A stretch of DNA of 32,881 nucleotides, taken from a virus. The translations under genes were made by a program, and so were the position numbers. Positions 907 through 32,881 of this stretch are shown piece after piece (positions within the stretch are counted from its first letter, which is position 1; each line of letters starts with the position of its first letter). Below the pieces are notes generated by a model, which saw nothing but the letters and a program-made list of their open reading frames with translations, was not told the DNA's origin and searched no databases. The stretch is taken from the IMG/VR virus record IMGVR_UViG_3300026531_000079, positions 1 to 32,881 of that record; one strand, written 5' to 3'.

Positions 907-1398
907 ATGGCTAATAAGCCGGGAAAAATAGACAGGGTACCGCAGCAAATGAGCCTGCTGGATTGCCTTGAGCGCATTCAGGCCGAAAAAAGGGCCAGCC
1001 GCGATCCAGAGGGCAGCCTCAATATCAACGTGGCCCTGCGGCGAGCCATGAAACGCGCCATCAAACAATGCCACTTGAGCCGGCACCAGATAGCCGGCGA
1101 GATGTCCCACCTGGTGGGCGTTGAGATCACCAAGACCATGATCGATAGCTGGACGGCCGAGTCCAAGCCCCAGAACCGGCCGCCGGCGGAGTATATCCCG
1201 GCCTTTTGCAGGGCGACCGGCTCCAATGAACCACTTGAGGTGCTGACTGACGCGGCGGGCATATTCGCAATGCCGGGGCCGGACGCCCTGCGGGCCGAGA
1301 TCCAGCGTTTTGCTGAAGAGGAACGCCGCGCTCGCGCTGAAAAGCGCAAGCGCGAGCTATTTTTACAGGAAATAGAGAGTAAACGACGGCTGATATGA
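907..1398 (+). CDS. Early protein of unknown function upstream of transposase
   Basis: This is a 163-residue, charged protein with a central region (about 40-100) that looks like a DNA-binding fold: a basic helix, then SRHQIAGEMSHLVGVEIT, which resembles a helix-turn-helix. The C-terminal 35 residues are a highly charged probable helix (EEERRARAEKRKRE). It overlaps the transposase gene by 4 bp (ATGA), so the two are probably translationally coupled. Proteins in this slot occur in Mu-like phages without an assigned role. A role in transposition or regulation is only a contextual guess. Confidence 0.7.
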   Translation: MANKPGKIDRVPQQMSLLDCLERIQAEKRASRDPEGSLNINVALRRAMKRAIKQCHLSRHQIAGEMSHLVGVEITKTMIDSWTAESKPQNRPPAEYIPAFCRATGSNEPLEVLTDAAGIFAMPGPDALRAEIQRFAEEERRARAEKRKRELFLQEIESKRRLI

Positions 1399-3554
1399 GC
1401 GGGCTGACAGCAAAACAGATCGCCGAGCAAACCGGCAAAACCGTCCGATGGATACAGGCACGGGCCAAAAAGGAAGCCTGGCCGTACACCATTGCCACAG
1501 GCCGGGGCGGCAAAATTCCTCTTTATGCCGTATCGACCCTGCCCGAGGATATCCAGGCAGCTCTATTAAATAAGGAAAAGCCAGCCGAAAGCCTGCCGGT
1601 CGAATCCCCCGGAGGGATAAACCCAAACTTAAACCCAAATTCAAACAGGAAAGGAACGATAAAAACGGATATGTCAAGGCCAACCACCCTCGACCGGCAG
1701 GCGGTGGCCGCTGCCAGGGCCGACCTGGTCCGGGCTTACGTAGAGCACCTGAACCAGGCCGGCCGGGGCAGCAAAACCGCGGCCCGCAAGGGTTTTATGG
1801 CCGCCTACAACGCTGGCCAGTCATATCCGCGCCTGTTTGGGATACTTGGCCCGGTCTCCTGGCAAACCATCGAACGCTGGAAGAGATCCTTTGAGACAGC
1901 TAACCTGCCGGCCCTGGCCGACCGTCGCGGCCGGCCGGCCGGTACAGGGCTTTTGACCCCACAGCAGACCGAGATCCTGCTCTCGTGCGTCCTGCACCCC
2001 AATCGGCCCCTGATCGCCGAGGCCATCCGCATGGCAAAGGCGGTCATGGCCTCCAAGGGCATCGAAAACGGCCACAGCGAGCGCACCTACCGCCGCTGGC
2101 TGGCTCAATGGAAAGACCGCCACTACCATATCTGGGTGTGGACCAGGGAGGGCTCCAAGGCCTGGAACGACAAATGCGCCCTGTATATCGAACGGGACTA
2201 CGATACGATCGAGGTGGGCGACCTGGTGGTGGCCGACGGCCACATCCTGAATTTTGAAATCATCAACCCCTGGACCGGCAAGCCCAAACGGATGACCCTG
2301 ATCGTGTGGCGGGACATGAAGTCCAGCTATCCGCTGGGCTGGGAGATCATGCCCACGGAAAACACCCAGGCCATTGCCTCTGCCTTGCGCCGGTCCATCC
2401 TGCGCCTGGGCAAAATACCGCAGGTGGCCTACCTGGACAACGGCAAGGCCTTCGGCAGCAAGTTTTTCAACTCCGACCTTACAGAATCCGGCCTGTTCGG
2501 GCTGTTTGCCCGCCTGAACATCAAGACCATATTTGCCTGGCCTTATCACGGCCAAAGCAAGACCATTGAACGCTTTTTTCGGGATTTTGCCGAACTCGAA
2601 CGCTGGTGCCCCACCTACGTGGGCACGTCCATCGACAAGAAACCGCCCCGCCTGCTGCGCGGCGAGACCCTGCACCGCAAGGTCTATGAAAAATGGACCG
2701 GCGGCCAGTGCCTGACTATGGAACAGGCCCACCGGGCGATTGCGGCCTGGTTCGACCAGTACGTCCAGCGACCCCAGAGCGGCCACCTGAACGGTAGGTG
2801 CCCGGCAGAGGTTTTCGAGACCGGCCGCGGCCCGGGCGTGGACCCGGCTGAACTCACCTTCCTGATGATGGCCCAGGAGATCCGCCATATCAGGCGCAAC
2901 GGCATCCATTTCCTGGGCCGCAATTACTATCACCCGGAACTGTACGGCCGCCGCCACCAGGTCCTGATCCGCTACGACCTGCAAGCGCCAGAGGAGATCT
3001 ACGTTTTTGAAACCGACGGCCGCTTTATCTGTAGCGCGAAGCAAACCGAAAAGATCCACCCGGCAGCCGCCATCCTGGGCGATGACGAGGACCGGGAAAA
3101 GCTGCGTAAATGGATCGCCGAAAAGCGGCACCAGGAAAAGCTTGCCAGCATATCTGCCCGCAAATTCCTGGAAGACGAAGTCCTGCCGGCCCACCGCAGG
3201 CAGTTGGCCGCCGCCGGACTGCTGGAAACCGGACAAGAGGCGCCAACACAGGATGATCCTGCCCCGCAGCTTACCGCCGATGACGAGGCCAAGATCCTGG
3301 CCGAGGTGGCGGAATACGAAAAAGAACAACAGGCAGAAGCCCGCGACATGTGGTCCGAGCTGGAGGATCTGGGCGAGCTTGACCGCTACGAACGCCTGGT
3401 GGAAGCCGAGGCCCGCGGGCTTTTGATCCCCAAGCGCTGGGCGGCCTGGATGAAATACTTTGAGCAGACCCCGGCCTGGAAGCGCCAGGCCGACATTGGA
3501 TACTGGGACCAGGTGGCAGCCGCGGCCGCCATCATGTACCAGGTGCAACAATAG
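1395..3554 (+). CDS. A: Mu-type DDE transposase (MuA)
   Basis: This 719-residue protein catalyses strand transfer for integration and replicative transposition of the phage. An N-terminal winged-helix end/enhancer-binding domain (about 1-55; AKQIAEQTGKTVRWIQ) is followed by HTH-rich end-binding regions (about 95-260). The RNase H-like core carries a DDE triad at D281 (VVADGH), D348 (YLDNGK) and E392 (KTIERFF). The D-D spacing of 67 equals that of MuA. The beta-barrel domain follows (about 480-550), and then a charged helical C-terminus that in MuA contacts MuB. The start overlaps the preceding gene by 4 bp. It should act on repeats at the prophage ends, such as those near 31448-31486. Confidence 0.97.
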   Translation: MSGLTAKQIAEQTGKTVRWIQARAKKEAWPYTIATGRGGKIPLYAVSTLPEDIQAALLNKEKPAESLPVESPGGINPNLNPNSNRKGTIKTDMSRPTTLDRQAVAAARADLVRAYVEHLNQAGRGSKTAARKGFMAAYNAGQSYPRLFGILGPVSWQTIERWKRSFETANLPALADRRGRPAGTGLLTPQQTEILLSCVLHPNRPLIAEAIRMAKAVMASKGIENGHSERTYRRWLAQWKDRHYHIWVWTREGSKAWNDKCALYIERDYDTIEVGDLVVADGHILNFEIINPWTGKPKRMTLIVWRDMKSSYPLGWEIMPTENTQAIASALRRSILRLGKIPQVAYLDNGKAFGSKFFNSDLTESGLFGLFARLNIKTIFAWPYHGQSKTIERFFRDFAELERWCPTYVGTSIDKKPPRLLRGETLHRKVYEKWTGGQCLTMEQAHRAIAAWFDQYVQRPQSGHLNGRCPAEVFETGRGPGVDPAELTFLMMAQEIRHIRRNGIHFLGRNYYHPELYGRRHQVLIRYDLQAPEEIYVFETDGRFICSAKQTEKIHPAAAILGDDEDREKLRKWIAEKRHQEKLASISARKFLEDEVLPAHRRQLAAAGLLETGQEAPTQDDPAPQLTADDEAKILAEVAEYEKEQQAEARDMWSELEDLGELDRYERLVEAEARGLLIPKRWAAWMKYFEQTPAWKRQADIGYWDQVAAAAAIMYQVQQ

Positions 3555-3565
3555 GGAGGGGACGG

Positions 3566-4285
3566 ATGATCAAAACCAAGCCTGTGTTCGTCAAAACCAA
3601 AAACGTCCGCAATTTCGGTGTGCTCATGGACGGACTGGAGCTTGCCGCCGGCGAAGGACGCCTGGGCCTGGTCTATGGCCGGGCCGGCCGGGGAAAGACC
3701 CGCACCTGCCAGTGGTACACGGCCCAAAACGATGCTGTTTATCTGCGTATGGCAACTGTCTGGCGCACATCCGAACTGCCGTTTTTGCAGGCCCTGTGCA
3801 CCGAGTGCGGCTGGCAGGGCAATCCTCCTGGCCGCAAGGCAGTAGCGTTTACCGCTGCCGTGGATATGCTGGTGCAGCGGCCGCGACCGGTTTTCCTGGA
3901 CGAGATAGAAAAACTGGCGGGCTGGTTCCTGGACGTGGTGCGTGACCTGTCGGATCTTTCCGGGGCCCCCATCATCCTGGTGGGCGAAGAAGAGCTGGTC
4001 TCTGTCATGCGGCGCAACCGCCGGGTCTGGTCCCGGACATACCAGCAATTGCTGTTTGAGCCCATCGAGGTGCGCGACATCATAGTTTACGCCAAGGAAT
4101 TTGCCGGCCTGACCCTGTCTCCGGCTGTGGCCGGTATTTTCCACAAGGCCGCGGGCGGAGATTTCCGGATCGTGCGGCGCGACATCATCAACCTAGTGCA
4201 GATCCTCAACGCCAAGGGCACCGCCGAATGCGACCAGCAGACTGCCAAAATCGCCATCAAGACCGGTCTGGGAGGCACGGCATGA
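3566..4285 (+). CDS. B: Transposition target-selection ATPase (MuB)
   Basis: This 239-residue AAA+ ATPase has a Walker A motif GRAGRGKT (residues 38-45) and a Walker B motif PVFLDEIEK (about 108-116). MuB binds target DNA, activates MuA and gives target immunity. The protein is shorter than Mu B (312 residues) and starts almost directly with the ATPase fold, so it lacks the N-terminal HTH appendage of Mu B. It lies 11 bp downstream of the transposase and overlaps the next gene by 4 bp (ATGA). A GGGAGGGGACGG stretch gives the ribosome binding site. Confidence 0.93.
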   Translation: MIKTKPVFVKTKNVRNFGVLMDGLELAAGEGRLGLVYGRAGRGKTRTCQWYTAQNDAVYLRMATVWRTSELPFLQALCTECGWQGNPPGRKAVAFTAAVDMLVQRPRPVFLDEIEKLAGWFLDVVRDLSDLSGAPIILVGEEELVSVMRRNRRVWSRTYQQLLFEPIEVRDIIVYAKEFAGLTLSPAVAGIFHKAAGGDFRIVRRDIINLVQILNAKGTAECDQQTAKIAIKTGLGGTA

Positions 4286-4848
4286 GCGAGCGTTTCACCG
4301 ATCAGATACGGGCGGCGTTCCAGCGTCTGGCGGCGGAAAAATCCGGACCCATCGAACTGATGGCAGTGGCCCGGGAGCTGGACCTGCCCCTGAATGTTCA
4401 CCGCCGCAAACTGTACGTGGCCATGCGGGATTTTATCCGCCGGGGCGAGGTGGAGCGTATCAAACCCGGCCTTTACCGCTATATCGGCCTGACCAGCCAT
4501 GCCGGTGAAATCCAGCGCAAAATGTGGCGCCTGATCCGGGCCCGCAAATCGGACGGGGTAACCTACCAGGACCTGGTGGAGCTTTGCGGCGCCAGCCCGA
4601 ATTATGCCCGGGAGTATCTCCGGATGCTGACCAAGCGCGGGGTGCTCAAACGGATCGACCGGCGGCGGGCGGGCAACCTGCCCAGCCTGTTCCGGCTGAT
4701 CAACGATCCGGGTCCGGCTTTCCAGGCCAACCTGGAAAAAGCCGCAAAACTGCGCCGGTTGCGCCGCCAGGCCCTGGAGCGGATCGACGCCGCCTTTGCG
4801 GCCGTGCTGGAGGCCAGGCAGGCCCTGCTGGAAATAGAGGAGGAATGA
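4282..4848 (+). CDS. Winged-helix early protein, unknown function
   Basis: This is a 188-residue protein with two segments that resemble winged helix-turn-helix modules (about 5-70 and 75-140). Each has a conserved-looking helix pair ending in a basic wing (RRGEVERIKPGLYRYIG; KRGVLKRIDRR). A charged helical C-terminus follows. It is coupled by 4-bp overlaps to MuB upstream and to the zinc-ribbon gene downstream. The DNA-binding role is inferred from this pattern; no phage protein of known function is recognised. Confidence 0.7.
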   Translation: MSERFTDQIRAAFQRLAAEKSGPIELMAVARELDLPLNVHRRKLYVAMRDFIRRGEVERIKPGLYRYIGLTSHAGEIQRKMWRLIRARKSDGVTYQDLVELCGASPNYAREYLRMLTKRGVLKRIDRRRAGNLPSLFRLINDPGPAFQANLEKAAKLRRLRRQALERIDAAFAAVLEARQALLEIEEE

Positions 4849-5072
4849 TGAAACTCAACGAAACCTATCTGTGTCTTGACTGCGAATGGACCGGCCGGCC
4901 GGTGGCAGTCAATGGTGTCGATCAGTGTCCCCAGTGCGCCTCGCGGGCAGTCTTCCCACTGGCGGAATGGCTCAAGCCGAAAATCAATTTCAGGGTGGCA
5001 AACTATGCTCAGCAAAAAACAAATCGCGCTCGTGCATGTGGCGCGCTCCAAATTGGGGCTGTCAGAGCCTGA
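4848..5072 (+). CDS. Small zinc-ribbon protein
   Basis: The frame encodes 74 residues, or 75 if the ATG at 4845 is used. Two CxxC pairs (CLDC near residue 10 and CPQC near 27) form a probable zinc ribbon. The GAGGAGGAATGATG context supplies the ribosome binding site and overlaps the stop of the preceding gene. Its last 68 bp overlap the GemA gene in another frame. It belongs to the compact early operon. The role is unknown; small zinc ribbons often mediate protein-DNA or protein-protein contacts. Confidence 0.6.
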   Translation: MKLNETYLCLDCEWTGRPVAVNGVDQCPQCASRAVFPLAEWLKPKINFRVANYAQQKTNRARACGALQIGAVRA

Positions 5073-5400
5073 GTACCGGGCGGCCCTGGAATCTGTGGGG
5101 GTGGAGTCTGCCAAAAATCTCGACCAGGCCGGCCTGGACGCCCTGATGCGCCATTTCAGGTCCCTGGGGTTCCGGCCGCGGTCGGCCAGCCGTCAGCGGC
5201 GGCCGGCCTCGTCAAAGGAGGCCCTGATCGGCAAGATCGAGGCCGTCCTGGCCGACCTGTCCCTGCCCTGGTGCTATGCCGAGGGCATGGCCAGAAACAT
5301 GTTCGGCGTGGATCTGGTGGAATGGCTGACACCCAGGCAGCTGCACAAGCTGGTGGCGGCCCTGACCTATCACCAGCGGAGGCAGGGCAGGGCGCAATGA
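5005..5400 (+). CDS. gemA: GemA/gp16-family phage regulatory protein
   Basis: This 131-residue protein begins with a short basic helix (LSKKQIALVHVARSKLGLS) and carries the helical, basic body typical of the GemA/Gp16 (DUF1018) family. The C-terminal part contains MFGVDLVEWLTPRQLHKLVAAL, characteristic of the family. In Mu, GemA modulates host gene expression and DNA topology. The ATG at 5005 was chosen because family proteins start just before the SKKQI-type helix; a longer reading from 4876 would overlap most of the zinc-ribbon gene. It overlaps the next gene by 4 bp. Confidence 0.85.
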   Translation: MLSKKQIALVHVARSKLGLSEPEYRAALESVGVESAKNLDQAGLDALMRHFRSLGFRPRSASRQRRPASSKEALIGKIEAVLADLSLPWCYAEGMARNMFGVDLVEWLTPRQLHKLVAALTYHQRRQGRAQ

Positions 5401-5672
5401 GGTTGTCCAGGCATTTTATCGACAACTGGCAACGCCGGGTGGGCAACCTGCCCACGGTGGAAATGGTGCGCCGGATCATCAGCCAGGCCGTGCGGGTGCA
5501 ACGGGGCTGCTGTATGCGGCTTGCAAACGGCCGTCATTTCATCCGGTTGGCCATTTACTGGCACCCCGACCTGGACCTGATCATAACCGTCGATACGGTC
5601 AACAACGTGGCGGTCTCGGTGCTGTCGCGGGATGTCTACCGGAACAGGATGCAGGCAAAATGCAGCGAATAA
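5397..5672 (+). CDS. Early phage protein, unknown function
   Basis: This is a 91-residue protein with a basic N-terminus and a beta-rich centre (HFIRLAIYWHPDLDLIITVD). The ATG at 5397 overlaps the GemA stop (ATGA), which supports this start over a longer reading. The 3' end overlaps the following small gene by 13 bp. No family is recognised; position between GemA and Gam suggests a semi-essential early gene. Confidence 0.65.
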   Translation: MRLSRHFIDNWQRRVGNLPTVEMVRRIISQAVRVQRGCCMRLANGRHFIRLAIYWHPDLDLIITVDTVNNVAVSVLSRDVYRNRMQAKCSE

Positions 5673-5845
5673 ATAAATGGATAGAAGCCCTTGCGGGGCA
5701 CAACCTCCGGCTGCAGGCCGGGGATATGTCAACGATTGTAACAATGCTGGGCCTGTGCCGCTGCATTGAGGCGGCCCTGACCGGCATGCTGATCCAACAT
5801 AAATTCTGGAGAGGGCAAAATGAGCGATCAAACCCAGAAACATAA
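5660..5845 (+). CDS. Small early phage protein, unknown function
   Basis: The frame encodes 61 residues, mainly predicted helix, with several Cys/Met residues and no clear motif. It overlaps its upstream neighbour by 13 bp and its downstream neighbour by 26 bp, a pattern seen throughout this operon. No strong ribosome binding site is visible before the ATG. The call rests on the unbroken chain of overlapping genes; it could be spurious. Confidence 0.45.
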   Translation: MQRINKWIEALAGHNLRLQAGDMSTIVTMLGLCRCIEAALTGMLIQHKFWRGQNERSNPET

Positions 5846-6206
5846 AACCAGGCTGCTGATGGAGATGGCGCGCCACGTGGGCCGGTCCAACATGGTGGGC
5901 ATGGGTGAGCTGTATCGGGCAGTCTATGGCAAGGACTGGACAAACAGGATCAACGACACCCGGCGGCTGCGCAAACTGATCGCCGATTGCCAGGCAGACG
6001 GCGTTCCCATCTGTTCGGTGGTGTCCAGTACCGGTGGCGGGTATTACCTGGCCTCGGCTGGCTCCGAGCTTACGGACTATTGCACGCGCCTGCAGGACCA
6101 GGCCCTGCGCAAGCTGGCCAAGGTGGCCAAGCTGCGGCGCGTTGCCCTGCCGGACCTGCTTGGCCAGCTCCGGCTCCAGTCCGGCCGGCCTCCGGAGGCC
6201 CGATGA
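5820..6206 (+). CDS. Early phage protein with probable winged-helix fold
   Basis: This is a 128-residue basic protein. Residues 25-70 (MVGMGELYRAVYGKDW, then RRLRKLIADCQADGVPI, then GGGYYLA) match the usual order of a winged helix: two helices, a recognition helix and a glycine-rich wing. A GAGGGCAAA stretch precedes the ATG. The stop overlaps the Gam start (ATGA). It could regulate the middle/late switch, since no Mor or C homologue is visible here, but that is inference. Confidence 0.65.
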   Translation: MSDQTQKHKTRLLMEMARHVGRSNMVGMGELYRAVYGKDWTNRINDTRRLRKLIADCQADGVPICSVVSSTGGGYYLASAGSELTDYCTRLQDQALRKLAKVAKLRRVALPDLLGQLRLQSGRPPEAR

Positions 6207-6661
6207 ACGCCCCGGAGCAGTTGAGGGCACAGGCAGACGCCCTGCTGGAGCAGATCGCCACGGCGGCCGGGCAACTGGACCGGGTGCAGGACGAATACAC
6301 CCGCAGGCTGCGTCTGTTACAGCAGGCCCACCAGGAGGCTGCGGACCGGGCCAAAAAACAGCTTGCGGCAGCGGAAAAGACGCTGCGGGCCTTTTTGCGC
6401 AAGCACAAGGCGGCCCTGTTTGCCGGCCCGGACGACCGGGTCGAACTTGACCACGGAGCTGTCCTCTACAAGCTGGAATCCAGGGTGGTTCGGGCCAAGG
6501 GCATGCTGGCCCGGCTCAAGACAGCTGGCCGCACCGACCTGATCAAGATTGCCGAATCGGTGGACTGGGACAGGTTCGAGCCGTTGCCCGACGAGGAGTT
6601 GCACACCCTTGGCACCAGGCGCCGGACTAAAGAGCTTTTTGACTACGAGCTACGGAAATGA
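6203..6661 (+). CDS. gam: Host-nuclease inhibitor Gam (Mu Gam)
   Basis: This 152-residue protein has a long N-terminal coiled-coil-forming helix (about 5-75), followed by a compact domain with SRVVRAKGMLARLKTAG and a conserved-type end (VDWDRFEPLPDEEL). This is the layout of Mu Gam, a Ku-like protein that binds DNA ends and blocks exonucleases such as RecBCD. It is coupled by 4-bp overlaps on both sides. Length is close to Mu Gam (174 residues). Confidence 0.8.
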   Translation: MNAPEQLRAQADALLEQIATAAGQLDRVQDEYTRRLRLLQQAHQEAADRAKKQLAAAEKTLRAFLRKHKAALFAGPDDRVELDHGAVLYKLESRVVRAKGMLARLKTAGRTDLIKIAESVDWDRFEPLPDEELHTLGTRRRTKELFDYELRK

Positions 6662-6852
6662 CGCAAAAACGCTACGTCGAATTTTGCGGGGAACTCAAGT
6701 GGGAAACCGATCAGGCTTATCTGGTTTTTGACGGATCCCACGAGATCTGGCTTCCCAAGAGCAAAACCAAGGCCCGGCAATTGCGTGCCTGTTTCAACGA
6801 GTGGGAATTTATCGTTCCGGCCTGGCTTGCCAGGGAAAAGGGAATAATATGA
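6658..6852 (+). CDS. Small early phage protein, unknown function
   Basis: This 64-residue protein is aromatic- and charge-rich (YVEFCGELKWETDQAYLVFDG). It is linked to its neighbours by ATGA overlaps on both sides, and this coupling supports a real gene. No family is recognised. Confidence 0.6.
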   Translation: MTQKRYVEFCGELKWETDQAYLVFDGSHEIWLPKSKTKARQLRACFNEWEFIVPAWLAREKGII

Positions 6853-7415
6853 AACTTACCTGCCCGTCATGTGGCGCTGTCCACAGCGCAGAAGCCTGGG
6901 GCAATGACGCCCAGGCCAGGCAGTGCCTGAAAACAGTGGCTGAAATGCCCCGGGAGGTTTCTGCCAGGGCATTGGCCTACCTGGCGCTGTTTCGGCCCCA
7001 GTCCGGCCGGGGGCTTTCCTGGTCAAAGGCCCTGCGCCTGCTGTCTTCCCTGCAGGACCTGGTAGCCCGGCCCTATGTCCAGTGGGACCGCAAGCCGGCC
7101 CGGCCGAACTCGGCCAGGGCCTGGGGCCAGGCGATGGAGCAGATTATCGGCCATCCGCCACGGCGGCTGCCGCTCAAAAACCACAACTACCTGCGGGCCA
7201 TAGCCTGGGAGTTTGCCGACCAGATGGACCGGGACACCGAACGACGGAAAATCGAGGCCGAACGCACCGGTCGCCTGATGGCCGATCGTCCGGAGCGCCA
7301 TATTTCCGAGGTACTTTCATCCGAGCAGATAGCGGCCCAGGTGGCGGAGTTCAAGGCGCGGCTGAGAAAGCGCAAGGAGAAACAGGATGAAATATCTGAA
7401 AACAACCTGGGATGA
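6849..7415 (+). CDS. Early phage protein with N-terminal CxxC zinc motif
   Basis: This 188-residue protein opens with a CPSC pair at residues 5-8 (MKLTCPSCGAVHSAEAW), then helical, basic sequence and a charged C-terminal helix (AEFKARLRKRKEK). The ATG at 6849 overlaps the previous stop, and starting here puts the CxxC at the very N-terminus. It overlaps the next gene by 29 bp. The role is unknown; similar CxxC-headed proteins sit at this place in Mu-like phages. Confidence 0.7.
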   Translation: MKLTCPSCGAVHSAEAWGNDAQARQCLKTVAEMPREVSARALAYLALFRPQSGRGLSWSKALRLLSSLQDLVARPYVQWDRKPARPNSARAWGQAMEQIIGHPPRRLPLKNHNYLRAIAWEFADQMDRDTERRKIEAERTGRLMADRPERHISEVLSSEQIAAQVAEFKARLRKRKEKQDEISENNLG

Positions 7416-7590
7416 TGTGCGTAATGCGGAACGCCGGCCCCACACCCGGACGGCCGTCCATATAATCTGCCCGTTTTGCGGGTTTAAAACGGGGTATTTC
7501 CCGGGGTCTCTGGCGGGCACCGGTAAGCGCTGCGCCCTGTGCGGGGCGTTGCACACACAAAAAGGGTGGTCAATACGGAAAAGGAGGTAA
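7387..7590 (+). CDS. Small zinc-ribbon protein
   Basis: This 67-residue basic protein has CPFC (about 29-32) and CALC (about 49-52) pairs, a classic two-knuckle zinc ribbon. An AGGAGAAACAGG stretch precedes the ATG. It is the last gene of the GC-rich early operon before the AT-rich cargo begins. Its final codons (AGG AGG TAA) also form a strong Shine-Dalgarno-like GGAGG with no gene behind it. Confidence 0.7.
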   Translation: MKYLKTTWDDVRNAERRPHTRTAVHIICPFCGFKTGYFPGSLAGTGKRCALCGALHTQKGWSIRKRR

Positions 7591-7597
7591 AAAACTT

Positions 7598-7680
7598 ATT
7601 TTTCACCATAACAGTTAATAACACAATGAGATGACAAGCTATAAAAAATATTGACGCAATCTACTTGTTATGGTAAAAAT
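7598..7680 (+). ncRNA. Candidate structured RNA in the deaminase leader (AvcI-like position)
   Basis: The AT-rich stretch 7591-7717 has no gene. It contains a long imperfect inverted repeat: ACCATAACA (7605-7613) pairs with TGTTATGGT (7666-7674), and the stem extends by ATTTTT (7598-7603) pairing with AAAAAT (7675-7680), with only C7604 bulged. The loop is 52 nt. Deaminases of the AvcD type are controlled by a non-coding RNA, AvcI, encoded just 5' of the deaminase gene. Position therefore suggests an equivalent RNA. The pairing is seen; the RNA is inference. An alternative is an operator pair flanking the promoter. Confidence 0.4.
7651..7679 (+). promoter_or_regulatory. Probable sigma-70 promoter for the deaminase cargo
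   Basis: TTGACG (7651-7656) and TAAAAA (7674-7679) are separated by 17 bp. The -10 lies in the right arm of the inverted repeat, so a protein bound to the repeat, or an upstream RNA, could affect it. Predicted transcription would start about 30 nt before the deaminase ATG. An independent promoter fits a cargo gene expressed from the lysogen. Confidence 0.45.
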
Positions 7681-7717
7681 TACCTAATTTAATTAAATAC
7701 TTCCACCTTTTTCAACT

Positions 7718-9373
7718 ATGTCCTCAAATAAATATTATAATTTAATTATTGGGCTTGCCGGGCCGTATGGTGCTGGATGCAGTTCTATTGCAGAAGATTT
7801 AACAAATATCATTCAAAATAGGCCAGGCTGTACTGTTGTAAACATCCGTGTGTCGGAATTAATAAAACGTTATTATAAGATTATTACAGCAAGAGACCTG
7901 AAACTAAAAAGTAAAACAAAAGCTAATCGCAGAAAAATTCTCCAAGAAGCCGGGACTGAAATGAGACAGGAAGACCCGGAGATAATTGGTAAAGTAATCA
8001 TAACCGAGATATATGAAAAGGCTCTTTCAAAAGAAGAGAAAGGGCAGTTTGATATAGGAACAGCTGTATTTATTGTTGATAGTATTAAAAATCAAAATGA
8101 GCTGGAATTATTAAGAAAAACTTTCTCAAATGAATTTTTTTTACTTTTTCTATATTCTGATAGAGAAACTCGTTGGAGGAGGATGGTTGATTATAAGTCT
8201 TGGGATAAAAAAGACCGCGTAAAGTTTGAAGAAAGAGATTTAATAGACCAAGACGAAAAAAGCGAACGCCCAAGCGTTGGATATGCTGGGCAACAAGTCG
8301 GCAAGCTTGCCGGGATGGGTGATTATTATATTGTTAACGATCAAAACCGTGAATCTCTCTATAATGATGCTAAAAGATTTGTGAATTTATTATTTGGCGG
8401 CGGCAGCAATCAACCTACACTTGAAGAACGGTCAATGCACTTGGCTTTTTCTGCGGCGAACAGATCTTTTTGTTTGAGTAGACAAGTTGGCGCAGCCATT
8501 ATTGACGACAAGGGAGATGTATTAGGCGTAGGGCATAATGACGTACCAAAAGCGACAGGTGGACTATACCGGCAGGAAGATGAAAATGACAGAAGATGTT
8601 ACTTGGTAGGCGACATGCGTTGTATAAACCACGTAAATAAAGAGGAGCGTTTTAATTCGCTTTACAAAAAAATCATAAATGAAATACAAAAATATATTGG
8701 GCCATTAAAGAGTAAACCTAAAAATGGTTCAAGGTCTTTATCTAACTTTAAAGAATCGATTAAATCCTTAATTGAAGGTTCGCCCTTTCGCGAAGCAACT
8801 GAATACTGTAGGGCTGTTCATGCTGAAATGGAAGCCTTGTTGAGTGTCGCAAGGACAGGAAGAAGTCCTGTTGGTGCTACAATGTATGTAACCACAGAAC
8901 CATGCCACAATTGTACAAAACATATTATTTGCGCTGGGATAAAGAAGGTTGTCTTTATGGAACCATACCCAAAGAGCTTGGGCATGGAATTGCATTCTGA
9001 TGCTATTCATAGGGGAAGTAGCCTCCCTATGTGCTCTGATAACAAAGTCCTTTATACTGCATATCAGGGAGTTGCGCCATACAGATATCAGGATTTCTTT
9101 CAGGCTATTGAAGAGAGAAAAGACAATAATGGAAAATATATAAGACGAACAAAGGACCAGAAATCTTTTGAACCAAGGTTTGCTATGCGTTTAAATCGCA
9201 GAAAGCGAAAAGTGCGTCCAAAAGACTTGGATGCGATAACGGCCAGAGAAAAGGATATAGCAAATTCAATAGGATATATGCTGAATAATGGTCGTACAAT
9301 AAAGAAACATAAAATGGAGGATGACAAAGATGCGGGAGGGAAAGCAACGGGAGGTGTTGAGTCCAGAACTTAA
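7718..9373 (+). CDS. Kinase-like/deoxycytidylate deaminase fusion, anti-phage AvcD/dCTP deaminase type
   Basis: This 551-residue protein has an N-terminal P-loop nucleoside-kinase-like domain (about 8-230; GPYGAGCSS at 15-23, where the usual Walker lysine is Cys21). The zinc cytidine/deoxycytidylate deaminase domain (about 238-430) has H368-A-E370, the zinc histidine and catalytic glutamate, and PC396HNC399, the zinc cysteines. A basic tail of about 110 residues follows. In the known defence family, infection activates the enzyme, which deaminates dCTP/dCMP and starves phage replication of deoxynucleotides. The gene is AT-rich, unlike its neighbours, and lies between early and lysis genes as cargo. 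No Shine-Dalgarno precedes the ATG, but the start must be upstream of the P-loop. Activity is inferred from architecture. Confidence 0.88.
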   Translation: MSSNKYYNLIIGLAGPYGAGCSSIAEDLTNIIQNRPGCTVVNIRVSELIKRYYKIITARDLKLKSKTKANRRKILQEAGTEMRQEDPEIIGKVIITEIYEKALSKEEKGQFDIGTAVFIVDSIKNQNELELLRKTFSNEFFLLFLYSDRETRWRRMVDYKSWDKKDRVKFEERDLIDQDEKSERPSVGYAGQQVGKLAGMGDYYIVNDQNRESLYNDAKRFVNLLFGGGSNQPTLEERSMHLAFSAANRSFCLSRQVGAAIIDDKGDVLGVGHNDVPKATGGLYRQEDENDRRCYLVGDMRCINHVNKEERFNSLYKKIINEIQKYIGPLKSKPKNGSRSLSNFKESIKSLIEGSPFREATEYCRAVHAEMEALLSVARTGRSPVGATMYVTTEPCHNCTKHIICAGIKKVVFMEPYPKSLGMELHSDAIHRGSSLPMCSDNKVLYTAYQGVAPYRYQDFFQAIEERKDNNGKYIRRTKDQKSFEPRFAMRLNRRKRKVRPKDLDAITAREKDIANSIGYMLNNGRTIKKHKMEDDKDAGGKATGGVESRT

Positions 9374-9500
9374 AAGAATAAGAGATGTCGGCTTAAGAGC
9401 TGGGGAAGAACTTGATATCTATAGGAAGACACTTATAGAGAAGAGCGAGGAAAGCATTAAAATTATCAGGGAATTCAAGGCATCAAGCGAGTCTTATTGA
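9330..9500 (+). CDS. Small charged protein overlapping the deaminase 3' end
   Basis: This 56-residue frame overlaps the last 44 bp of the deaminase gene in another frame. A GGAGG at 9316-9320 stands 9 nt before the ATG at 9330; an in-frame ATG at 9321 is too close to it. The product is highly charged and mostly predicted helix (ELKRIRDVGLRAGEELDIY; EKSEESIKIIREFK). It shares the AT-rich composition of the deaminase and ends just before the AT-rich block does. It could be a partner or modulator of the deaminase; no family is recognised. Confidence 0.6.
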   Translation: MREGKQREVLSPELKRIRDVGLRAGEELDIYRKTLIEKSEESIKIIREFKASSESY

Positions 9501-9562
9501 TAGAAAATTGTTGAAATTTGTCTTATCTTTCTGTAAGTTAAAATAGTTTTTCAGATTATATA

Positions 9563-9615
9563 CCGCTGCCCGAAATATTGTCTGTAGGCAGCGGGTAGAC
9601 CCGGTTCAGGCCGGG
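9563..9615. other. Two adjacent hairpins at the cargo/late-gene junction
   Basis: Within the gene-free stretch 9501-9692, CCGCTGCC (9563-9570) pairs with GGCAGCGG (9587-9594). Right after it CCCGG (9600-9604) pairs with CCGGG (9611-9615). Base composition switches from AT-rich to GC-rich here, which marks the right edge of the cargo. A terminator-like hairpin follows at 9630-9674. Function of the first two hairpins is unknown. Confidence 0.5.
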
Positions 9616-9629
9616 CGGTAAACGGCCAC

Positions 9630-9674
9630 AAAAGGCCCAGCAGGTTGCGCAGTCGCAGCCTCCTGGGCCTTTTT
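9630..9674 (+). terminator. Rho-independent-type terminator after the cargo
   Basis: AAAAGGCCCAG (9630-9640) is matched by CTGGGCCTTTTT (9663-9674), giving an 11-bp stem ending in a T run. It sits 15 bp before the lysis gene's GGAGG. It would stop cargo and early transcripts, and may insulate the late operon. It is nearly symmetric (A run before, T run after), so it could act on both strands. Confidence 0.65.
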
Positions 9675-9692
9675 GCGTTTGGAGGCAGCCAA

Positions 9693-10223
9693 ATGAGACC
9701 TACCCACATCATCCTGCACCACAGCCTGACAAAAGACGGCCGGGCCCTGAACTGGCAGGCCATCCGGCGCTACCACACAAGCTACAGATGCCAGGGCCGC
9801 ATCGTGTCGGCCGCCGAGGCCAGGAAGTTGGCCGCTGCTGGTCTACATGTCGAGCCGCCCTGGGACGATGTGGGTTACCACTTCGGCATCGAACTGGTGG
9901 GATCGCAGTACGAGATCATCGCCGGCCGGATGCTCAACGCAACCGGGGCCCACTGTCCCCAGGCCGCCATGAACCACCGGTCCATCGGGATCTGTTTCGT
10001 GGGCAATTTCGACACCGCCCCGCCGCCGGTAGATCAATGGGCCGCCGGGGTGCGGCTGGTCAAATCACTGATGGAAAGTTTCGACATACCGGCCAAAAAC
10101 GTCCACGGCCACCGGAACTATGCGCCGTGGAAAACCTGCCCGGGTAAATGTTTCGACCTGGAGCGTTTCCGCCGGGCCCTGATCGGAGAAAAGCAGCAAT
10201 GTCTTCCATTGTTTCCAAAGTGA
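9693..10223 (+). CDS. Endolysin: N-acetylmuramoyl-L-alanine amidase (Amidase_2)
   Basis: This 176-residue enzyme would cleave the amide bond between MurNAc and the peptide stem to lyse the host. It has the T7-lysozyme/PGRP layout: the zinc histidine in IILHHS (H9), a VGYHFGIE core, and the C-terminal zinc site in [13 protein letters not shown] (H140, C149). There is no signal peptide, so export depends on the holin. A GGAGG at 9681-9685 supports the ATG at 9693; a longer reading would begin inside the terminator. It heads the late/lysis operon. Confidence 0.92.
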
Positions 10224-30568: not shown

Positions 30569-31327
30569 ATGAACAGCCCATTGGCCTATATCGGCGGCAA
30601 ATCCAAACTGGCAGAAACCATTATCGACATGATGCCGGATCATAAATCCTATTGCGAAGTCTTTGCGGGAGCTGCCTGGGTGTTTTTTCGCAAGCCACCT
30701 TCTAAATACGAGGTCATAAATGATCTGGATAGCGACCTGGTCGCATTCTACCGGGTTTTGCAGCATCACCTGGAGGAGTTTTTGCGCCAGTTCAAATGGC
30801 TGCTGTCATCCCGTGAGTGGTTCGAGGACTGGAAGCGCCAGCAGGCAGCCGGCGGCCTGACCGATATCCAACGGGCAGCCCGCTATTATTATCTGCAACG
30901 GCTCTGTTATGGTGGTCGGGTGCGCAACCGTACCTTCGGCGCCGGCCCCATGTCCAGGCCCAGGATCAACTTGCTGCGCATTGAGGAAGAGCTTTCCGAG
31001 GTGCACCTGCGCCTGGCCGGCGTGATCATCGAACATTTGCCGTGGCAGGAATTTATCAGGCGCTACGACAGGCCCCAGACCCTAATGTACCTGGACCCGC
31101 CATACTACAAAGCACCATACTACGATCACAACATGGAGCTGGATGATTACCAGCAACTGGCTGATTTGCTTGAACAGACAGACTGCAAGTGGATTTTGAG
31201 CATCAACGATCACCCTGAAATGCGCCAGGTGTTCGACTCATTTAATTGTCACCAGGTTTCGCTGAAATACACAGTTGCCAAGGACAAACAAACGACAGGA
31301 AAGGAGCTTTTGATAACCAATTTTTGA
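30569..31327 (+). CDS. Dam-type (D12) adenine-N6 DNA methyltransferase
   Basis: This 252-residue enzyme has the D12-class signature: LAYIGGKSKL (SAM-binding start), CEVFAGAAWVFF (motif I, about 29-40) and D176PPY (catalytic motif IV). It would methylate adenine in a short target, commonly GATC-like for this class, protecting phage DNA from restriction. It is the last phage gene, the place where Mu has mom. ATG 30557 (four residues longer) is an alternative start. No matching endonuclease is present. Confidence 0.9.
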   Translation: MNSPLAYIGGKSKLAETIIDMMPDHKSYCEVFAGAAWVFFRKPPSKYEVINDLDSDLVAFYRVLQHHLEEFLRQFKWLLSSREWFEDWKRQQAAGGLTDIQRAARYYYLQRLCYGGRVRNRTFGAGPMSRPRINLLRIEEELSEVHLRLAGVIIEHLPWQEFIRRYDRPQTLMYLDPPYYKAPYYDHNMELDDYQQLADLLEQTDCKWILSINDHPEMRQVFDSFNCHQVSLKYTVAKDKQTTGKELLITNF

Positions 31328-31419: not shown

Positions 31420-31447
31420 GCGCCCTGGCTTTCAGGTCAAAATATTT

Positions 31448-31486
31448 TTCTCATATTTTTTGTCAATTTTCTCATATTTTTTGTCA
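31448..31486 (+). repeat. Candidate phage right end: tandem transposase-site repeats
   Basis: TTCTCATATTTTTTGTCA occurs at 31448-31465 and 31469-31486, 21 bp apart (two helical turns). Closely spaced repeated sites near the end are what MuA-type transposases bind, and the second copy ends in CA. Sequence after 31486 reads as a host GIY-YIG fragment. The repeat is seen; its role as the phage end is inference. Confidence 0.5.
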
Positions 31487-31602
31487 CGTTACAATTGTAT
31501 TTTGAGCGATACGATGACAAGCATGCAGCGGCCCATCGAGAGAGGCAGATCAAGGGCTGGCGCAGGGAGAAGAAGTTATCATTGATAAAATCAGGCCGGT
31601 GA
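31487..31602 (+). pseudogene. GIY-YIG nuclease, C-terminal fragment cut by the prophage
   Basis: The frame encodes LYFERYDDKHAAAHRERQ then IKGWRREKKLSLIKS, which matches the typical C-terminal half of small GIY-YIG nucleases (LVYFExxDDxxxAIxREKQIKxWRRxxKxxLI). The GIY and YIG parts are missing. If the prophage entered this gene, the N-terminal half should lie left of the prophage with a 5-bp target duplication, perhaps CGTTA (31487-31491). It ends early at a TGA (31600-31602), before the usual NPxWxDL. Confidence 0.6.
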
Positions 31603-31644
31603 GCTTGTCCTGAGCGTCAGCGAAGGAAGTCCTACCCGGGGAGC

Positions 31645-31700
31645 CAAAAAAAGATCGCCCTGTCGATTTTGTGAACCGGCGGGGCGTTTTTTATTTTTTT
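31645..31700 (+). terminator. Terminator-like hairpin in host DNA
   Basis: AAAAAAAGATCGCCC (from about 31646) is matched by GGGCGTTTTTT (31682-31692), with a long inner loop; an interrupted T run continues to 31700. The A run before and T run after suggest a bidirectional terminator between the GIY-YIG fragment and the convergent Fic gene. Confidence 0.55.
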
Positions 31701-31717
31701 GAAGAGACATTGTGGGG

Positions 31718-31837
31718 TGACAAAAAATATGAGAAATTGATTTTGGCTGGTTTTGGGGCCTTTTTGGGGCACTTTTATGAAACGTTTTAGGCACTTGTGT
31801 GGAACTCTAAGTGCGAATTTTCTCATATTTTTTGTCA
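31718..31837. repeat. 120-bp element with 18-bp inverted ends matching the phage end repeats
   Basis: TGACAAAAAATATGAGAA (31718-31735) is the exact inverse of TTCTCATATTTTTTGTCA (31820-31837), and the same 18-bp sequence forms the right-end repeats at 31448 and 31469. The element begins TG and ends CA, and touches the stop codon of the Fic gene. Flanking 5-mers (TGGGG and CTACG) do not match, so no clear target duplication is seen. Confidence 0.6.
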
Positions 31838-32881
31838 CTACGGAATCACTTCCCACCTGGCGCCCCGTCCCCTGCCGACAAGGCGGACCTTGCCTTGTTT
31901 TTTCAGCTCCGCAAGAATCTTTTTTATCAGTTGGGTGCTGGCCGACGGCAACTGGGCCGCAAGGTCCCCCAGCGTGAACTGCTCCAACTGGGCGAGCACG
32001 GTCTGTTTGACCAGGTCGCTCTTGGCAGGACGCGCTTCCGTCGATTCCACCTGCCGCTCGAATTCTTTGTAAGCGCGCCGCAACATGCTCAGGAAGTAAT
32101 TCCACCAGGGAATGATTTCGTTTTTACCTTCATGCCATCTCTGAGAACATTCAGCCAGCACACTGTAGTACTCTTCTTTACTGTCCTCGATAAGACGCTC
32201 CAGGCTGACATACCTCGCAACCTGAAAACCATGCGCCTGGAGTAAAAGCGTTGTAACCAAGCGGGAAACACGCCCGTTCCCATCACGAAACGGGTGGATG
32301 CACAAAAGATCGAACACGAAGGTGGCCACAAGTAAAAGCGGCGGGAGGCGTTCGTCATCGCAGGCTTCCCGGTAGTTCCGGCAAAGCGCATCCACAACCT
32401 TAGGAGTTTTCTTGGCGGAGGTGGGAACAAACCTGATTTTCCTCTCGCCGTTGGGCAAAATTTCGATAATCTCATTGTCGCGCTTCTTCCATTCACCTGC
32501 ATCACCGGAAAGCCCGCCCTGGGCGAGTGCGTGAAGCCGCTGGATAACCTTCGGAATGATAGACACCTGGCGCTTGCGCGAAAAAATCCAGTCTAACGCC
32601 TGTCTGTAACCTGCGAGTTCCTCTTCCGAGCGATCCCGGGGCTTGGCCTTTCCAAGAACCACCGGACGGAGCCGGTCAGCCGGTATCGTAACCCCCTCAA
32701 TCCGGTTCGATGATTCCACACTCTGGATTATGGCCTGTTCACGCAGAACTTCGAGAACCTCGGGTTTCTGTCTGATCCAGAGTTCCTGTTTTCCCCGGGC
32801 TTCCATACACGATCCGAGAAGCCAGCCCGTACCAACCGGGATCGACATTTCGGTCATTTTTTTGGGGTCCAGCGACAGCAT
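31838..32881 (-). CDS. Fic family AMP-transferase, class II, with C-terminal winged helix
   Basis: This 347-residue protein carries the catalytic Fic motif HPFRDGNGR (196-204); His196 is the base that transfers AMP from ATP to a target hydroxyl. An N-terminal inhibitory helix motif SxxxEG (S58-E62-G63) marks class II self-inhibited Fic proteins. The C-terminal part (about 295-347; LGDLAAQLPSASTQLIKKIL) looks like a winged helix. The gene runs leftward toward the prophage and ends immediately beside the 120-bp repeat element. It is host, not phage, DNA. Confidence 0.93.
   Translation of the reverse strand: MLSLDPKKMTEMSIPVGTGWLLGSCMEARGKQELWIRQKPEVLEVLREQAIIQSVESSNRIEGVTIPADRLRPVVLGKAKPRDRSEEELAGYRQALDWIFSRKRQVSIIPKVIQRLHALAQGGLSGDAGEWKKRDNEIIEILPNGERKIRFVPTSAKKTPKVVDALCRNYREACDDERLPPLLLVATFVFDLLCIHPFRDGNGRVSRLVTTLLLQAHGFQVARYVSLERLIEDSKEEYYSVLAECSQRWHEGKNEIIPWWNYFLSMLRRAYKEFERQVESTEARPAKSDLVKQTVLAQLEQFTLGDLAAQLPSASTQLIKKILAELKKQGKVRLVGRGRGARWEVIP

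Follow-up and report, generated by a model that had tools for sequence, protein, structure and literature searches.

Deaminases that destroy the DNA building block dCTP are known phage-defence enzymes, and among the described systems closest to the locus reported here are those of the AvcID type, of which representatives from Vibrio cholerae, V. parahaemolyticus and E. coli ETEC have been tested. In these systems, AvcI, a noncoding RNA located upstream of avcD, inhibits AvcD (PMC10511110, PMC9455884). Phage infection removes the RNA, which frees AvcD to deaminate dC nucleotides; the AvcID relatives that have been tested show this activity and protect against some phages (PMC10511110). The enzyme itself is already known, and the only control of anti-phage dCTP deaminases (DCDs) described in the accessible literature is by an RNA antitoxin, in a few gammaproteobacterial systems.

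Here, we describe a DCD locus carried by a Mu-like element in a viral DNA stretch of 32,881 nucleotides (IMG/VR record IMGVR_UViG_3300026531_000079, positions 1 to 32,881; hereafter, the window), which begins 213 bases from the contig end. The features on which the analysis rests are collected in Table 1.

Table 1. Features of the DCD block, its carrier and the right end of the window, with the evidence for each assignment
Feature	Coordinates	Strand	Evidence
MuA-type transposase of the carrier	1395..3554	+	phrog_310, 387 bits
MuB-type transposition protein	3566..4285	+	phrog_296, 111 bits
Mu Gam-like end-protection protein	6197..6661	+	phrog_491, 50.5 bits
Early gene phrog_2161, anchoring the variable slot on the left	6849..7415	+	homologues located the slot in relatives
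AT-rich leader with inverted repeat	7591..7717	+	fold z -1.9
Weak promoter-like match TTGACG-18-AAAAAT	7651..7680	+	9/12 match
Anti-phage dCTP deaminase (DCD/AvcD type), 551 aa	7718..9373	+	PADLOC dCTPase, NF041025, predicted structure, PDB fold matches
Small partner ORF, 56 aa	9330..9500	+	nearest DCDs have an ORF of 54-60 aa in the corresponding position; first of 11,145 in the leave-one-out search
Terminator-like hairpin and T run	9632..9674	+	fold of 9500-9695, z -4.2
Amidase (lysis) gene, anchoring the variable slot on the right	9693..10223	+	phrog_822, 81 bits
DNA methyltransferase	30578-31327		PADLOC MTase_II, 261.8 bits
Fic-type candidate bordering the window's right end	31838-32881	-	PADLOC SoFic, 113.8 bits

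A first-pass annotation of this DNA, made from the letters alone, had read the 551-aa ORF as an AvcD-like protein with a kinase-like P-loop domain followed by a zinc deaminase domain, and this reading is borne out. Judged from its sequence, the product is a known type of anti-phage enzyme, predicted to destroy dCTP, with all catalytic residues present. The best-matching models are PADLOC dCTPase (442.8 bits across residues 8-531; a model without a stated cut-off) and NCBIfam NF041025, anti-phage dCTP deaminase (388.3 bits, 12 bits short of the curated cut-off of 400); both are far ahead of the models of dCMP deaminases. The HAE motif corresponds to H368/E370 and the PCxxC motif to P395-C396-x-x-C399, and H368, E370, P395, C396 and C399 are all invariant in an alignment of 31 relatives. 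The P-loop-like N-terminus reads GPYGAGCSS, without the usual lysine. Structure prediction covering both domains yielded a confident model (mean pLDDT 84, pTM 0.82), one half of which resembles dCMP deaminases and the other half adenylate-kinase-like proteins among the PDB fold matches. The full-length gene is present in a single copy in its genome. In an unrooted quick FastTree, the window DCD is placed with loci to which NCBI gives the name anti-phage dCTP deaminase, within a clade with support of 97-100.

The window enzyme therefore shares with the anti-phage dCTP deaminases (NF041025; PADLOC dCTPase) the two domains, full-length alignment, the catalytic residues and the mobile-element setting, and differs from them in falling under the NF041025 cut-off, in the lysine-less P-loop and in forming its own clade with a small ORF downstream. 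The T4-type and other phage dCMP deaminases have the zinc deaminase domain and fold in common with it, but their match extends over only about a third of it and the kinase-like half is missing from them. An origin from phage dCMP deaminases was rejected on the partial coverage and the family scores.

The carrier is a Mu-like prophage, as initially annotated, with MuA, MuB and Gam homologues and an early-to-lysis gene order, and the block lies where it had been placed, between an early gene and a lysis gene. The block has a GC content of about 38%, compared with about 61% in the flanks. With MuA and phrog_2161, the early gene, serving as anchors, we read the corresponding slot among related elements, namely, the Mu-like prophages of five genomes (G011, G028, G045, G048 and G056) and viral contigs, with MuA proteins 44-60% identical to that of the window; in the prophages, MuB accompanies 7 of 8 MuA loci, and Gam or phrog_2161 is found in several. 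A DCD was found in none of the slots read. Unlike in the window, the slot is occupied by regulators with Rha, BRO-N or ORF6N domains, by a DUF4747 pair, by other small ORFs, as in the viral contigs with both anchors, or by a lysis gene alone. In one case (L027), the early gene is directly followed, by eye, by a lysozyme gene, with a holin-like gene also present; in a related Mu-like viral contig (L012:12026-13425), the slot contains a DUF4747 protein and a 178-aa, apparently membrane-bound ORF, both at 39-42% GC and with no PADLOC match. Because of its foreign composition and the DCD-free slots of the related elements, we take the block to be AT-rich foreign cargo in a variable slot between early and lysis genes. 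Full-length DCDs are common in viral contigs in general, and one of these contigs, L191, has MuA- and MuB-like genes inside the 10 kb examined, with 28-29% identity to those of the window.

These observations bear on the purpose of the gene. The dCMP deaminases of many lytic phages do give weak partial matches, as would be expected if the deaminase were a nucleotide-metabolism gene serving the replication of the Mu-like phage itself rather than defence. We consider this highly improbable, given that the protein resembles the two-domain anti-phage family over its full length, that related elements lack the gene in the slots read and that the composition of the gene is AT-rich and foreign.

At the opposite end of the window, four exact copies of TTTCTCATATTTTTTGTCA (three direct and one inverted, with 0.01 expected by chance) lie within 31447-31837 and adjoin the divergent Fic-type candidate gene.

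The first-pass annotation had further endowed the block with its own promoter, leader and terminator, and these fared less well. The promoter-like match scores at chance level for its region (9 matches versus 5.4 +/- 2.1 in shuffles). The clear terminator-like hairpin, with a stem at 9632-9671 and a T run to 9674, is located in GC-rich phage DNA to the right of the block, immediately before the amidase gene. The leader holds up as an AT-rich segment of 127 bases with an inverted repeat, CCATAACAG ... TTGTTATGG, but support for it is weak, with the modest fold score given in Table 1 and no significant match in an Rfam scan of the block. Inspection of the sequence revealed no Shine-Dalgarno-like site before the deaminase ATG.

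Among the tested AvcID systems, the protein of ETEC plasmid p58 aligns with residues 8-507 of the window enzyme (33%). The window differs from AvcID in having a small ORF downstream of the enzyme gene and none upstream, within the leader. By extension from AvcI, reported as an upstream noncoding inhibitor of AvcD (PMC10511110, PMC9455884), the leader could encode an antitoxin RNA that inhibits the enzyme, with the downstream ORF being incidental or of minor importance. The leader is foldable and contains the inverted repeat, in keeping with such a role; however, it is just 127 bases long, matches no Rfam family (in a scan without an AvcI model) and does not, by eye, obviously resemble the leaders that precede the nearest DCDs, whereas the downstream ORF retains its position across the clade. 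RNA control thus appears unlikely to be the main mode of regulation here, and the coupled small gene is a better control candidate than the weak promoter, leader and terminator.

This second gene of the block had been missed in the earlier annotation. It overlaps the end of the deaminase gene by 44 bases, and GGAGG at 9317-9321, about eight bases before its start, constitutes a strong ribosome-binding site. The nearest DCDs, L049 (54% identity), L220 (52%), L050 (47%) and L030, carry an ORF of 54-60 aa in the corresponding position, and in the sister loci L092 and L097, a small ORF follows 19 and 53 bases past the DCD gene, respectively. No homologues of a 59-aa reading of the small ORF were detected in the loci first searched; the pattern emerged when close relatives were added. 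Every one of the nearest DCDs has a coupled small ORF, compared with about 7% of other long ORFs (the counts of coupled ORFs, 51/153 versus 64/870, include duplicates).

Sequence comparison of these small ORFs gave a less uniform picture. Identity between the ORFs of the clade is 9-24%, and leave-one-out searches were weak with five clade members and mixed with seven. With seven, the ORFs of the window and L030 each ranked first among the non-training ORFs of a set of 11,145, followed by L097 (rank 5), L092 (rank 13) and L220 (rank 17); L049 ranked 373 and L050 was missed, so that two of the seven went unrecovered. Because of these two cases, sequence homology across the clade is only partly supported, and the position of the ORFs is the stronger evidence. 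The low identity, the failure of L049 and L050 and the coupled small ORFs after some other long ORFs are all compatible with chance reading frames next to a deaminase that acts as a single-gene system. We regard such an explanation as unlikely in view of the contrast between the background of about 7% and the nearest DCDs, the first ranks of the window and L030 ORFs, and the conservation of partners at the protein level in other DCD lineages.

The L030 locus has a peculiarity of its own: in this genome of the same family (reverse complement, about 2614-9089), the DCD is interrupted by two insertions, both of which carry an ORF for an IS110-like transposase. By eye, we noticed two ORFs upstream of the DCD, one dUTPase/dCTP-deaminase-like with a hydrophobic tail and the other NUDIX-like.

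We consider it likely that the block is a two-gene anti-phage cassette acquired by the Mu-like prophage, in which a DCD/AvcD-type enzyme is combined with a 56-aa protein, probably through coupled translation. By analogy with the tested relatives, the enzyme would deaminate dCTP and dCMP upon infection by another phage, starving the invader of a nucleotide. The 56-aa protein, probably translated from the same message, would most likely bind the enzyme, keeping it off or sensing infection; inhibitor, sensor and activator of the DCD are all candidate roles. The argument of the first-pass annotation that the carrier phage must control a putative nucleotide-depleting enzyme is reasonable, and restraint of the enzyme by the small protein would also allow survival of the prophage that carries it. 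The logic of the window would then likely be that of an AvcD-like enzyme controlled by a co-translated protein rather than by RNA.

Most other DCD copies, too, seem to be accompanied by an adjacent tiny, conserved gene, one without a name in the family libraries searched. A recognisable small-protein gene lies next to the DCD in 75 of 138 dereplicated loci; 53 loci have no recognised partner and 10 are at contig edges. The 75 partners comprise 29 QL downstream, 26 LW upstream, 10 WP downstream, 5 LW downstream, 4 of the window's type and 1 QL upstream. Downstream partners are marked by QLxLxF, by WPxWK or by the window's type, and the WPxWK form, the third of the downstream forms, occupies its own part of the DCD tree (L178, L167, L172, L162, L215 and others). 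More generally, partner type mostly tracks the DCD tree in the quick FastTree analysis. The window ORF contains neither the QLxLxF/L motif nor the C-terminal A..LxW helix and shows no similarity to the QL and LW partners in profile comparison; position alone is common to them.

Iterated profiles built from hand-picked seeds matched 26 QL and 33 LW ORFs among 11,144 small ORFs of DCD loci, all beside a DCD; the ORF of L054 was tagged 'other' solely because its start is 158 bases before the DCD end. The seeds were picked by eye from rule-made lists, so motif counts within each partner form are partly circular; the adjacency of the non-seed matches (12 QL and 16 LW, by our own count) is unaffected. 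The upstream and downstream forms align with each other at the profile level (probability 88.7%). Comparison of 13 upstream partner sequences with Pfam and of 11 downstream QL sequences with NCBIfam yielded no family match, only single weak hits. Searching genomes of the same phylum and of the same order with the QL and LW profiles gave no matches, a result that carries no weight. Among close partner pairs, simple NG86 estimates put dN below dS, at 0.01 versus 0.13 (L052/L053), 0.23 versus 0.99 (L067/L134), 0.22 versus 0.79 (L051/L103), 0.42 versus 1.22 (L043/L048) and 0.35 versus 0.86 (L144/L147); the reading rests on such pairs, of which the window's clade has none, and distant pairs are saturated, with some ratios near or above 1. 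No convincing case of a DCD-partner fusion was found. In L085, L070, L170 and L045, the overlapping ORF after the DCD is larger, measuring about 160-190 aa rather than 50-75 aa.

In Gammaproteobacteria, for which the comparison set left out the V. cholerae and V. parahaemolyticus loci, the partner is upstream of the DCD, at the position given for the antitoxin RNA AvcI. These upstream ORFs do not contradict an RNA role because one transcript could serve both. The upstream small ORF of ETEC plasmid p58 is annotated as a hypothetical protein and falls outside the LW profile, and its relative in L114 matches that profile weakly (E = 0.11); in a Vibrio coralliilyticus locus added later, the upstream ORF, which is unannotated, ends in AASKLDW (E = 0.0013). 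We tentatively suggest, with slightly less than even confidence, that anti-phage dCTP deaminases are two-protein systems, in which a partner gene of 50-75 aa adjoins the enzyme gene in most loci, including upstream at the AvcI position, with the window representing a distinct downstream form.

A small-protein gene conserved across the family would change the annotation, expression and testing of DCD systems. The window offers a useful case, since its small ORF is downstream, so that the protein and the leader can be separated in tests, and this in a setting where the carrier phage must tolerate its own nucleotide-depleting cargo. The QLxLxF motif of the QL form, absent from the window ORF, resembles the bacterial sliding-clamp-binding hexapeptide; if this motif does bind the clamp, a link between the defence enzyme and the replication machinery would be suggested.
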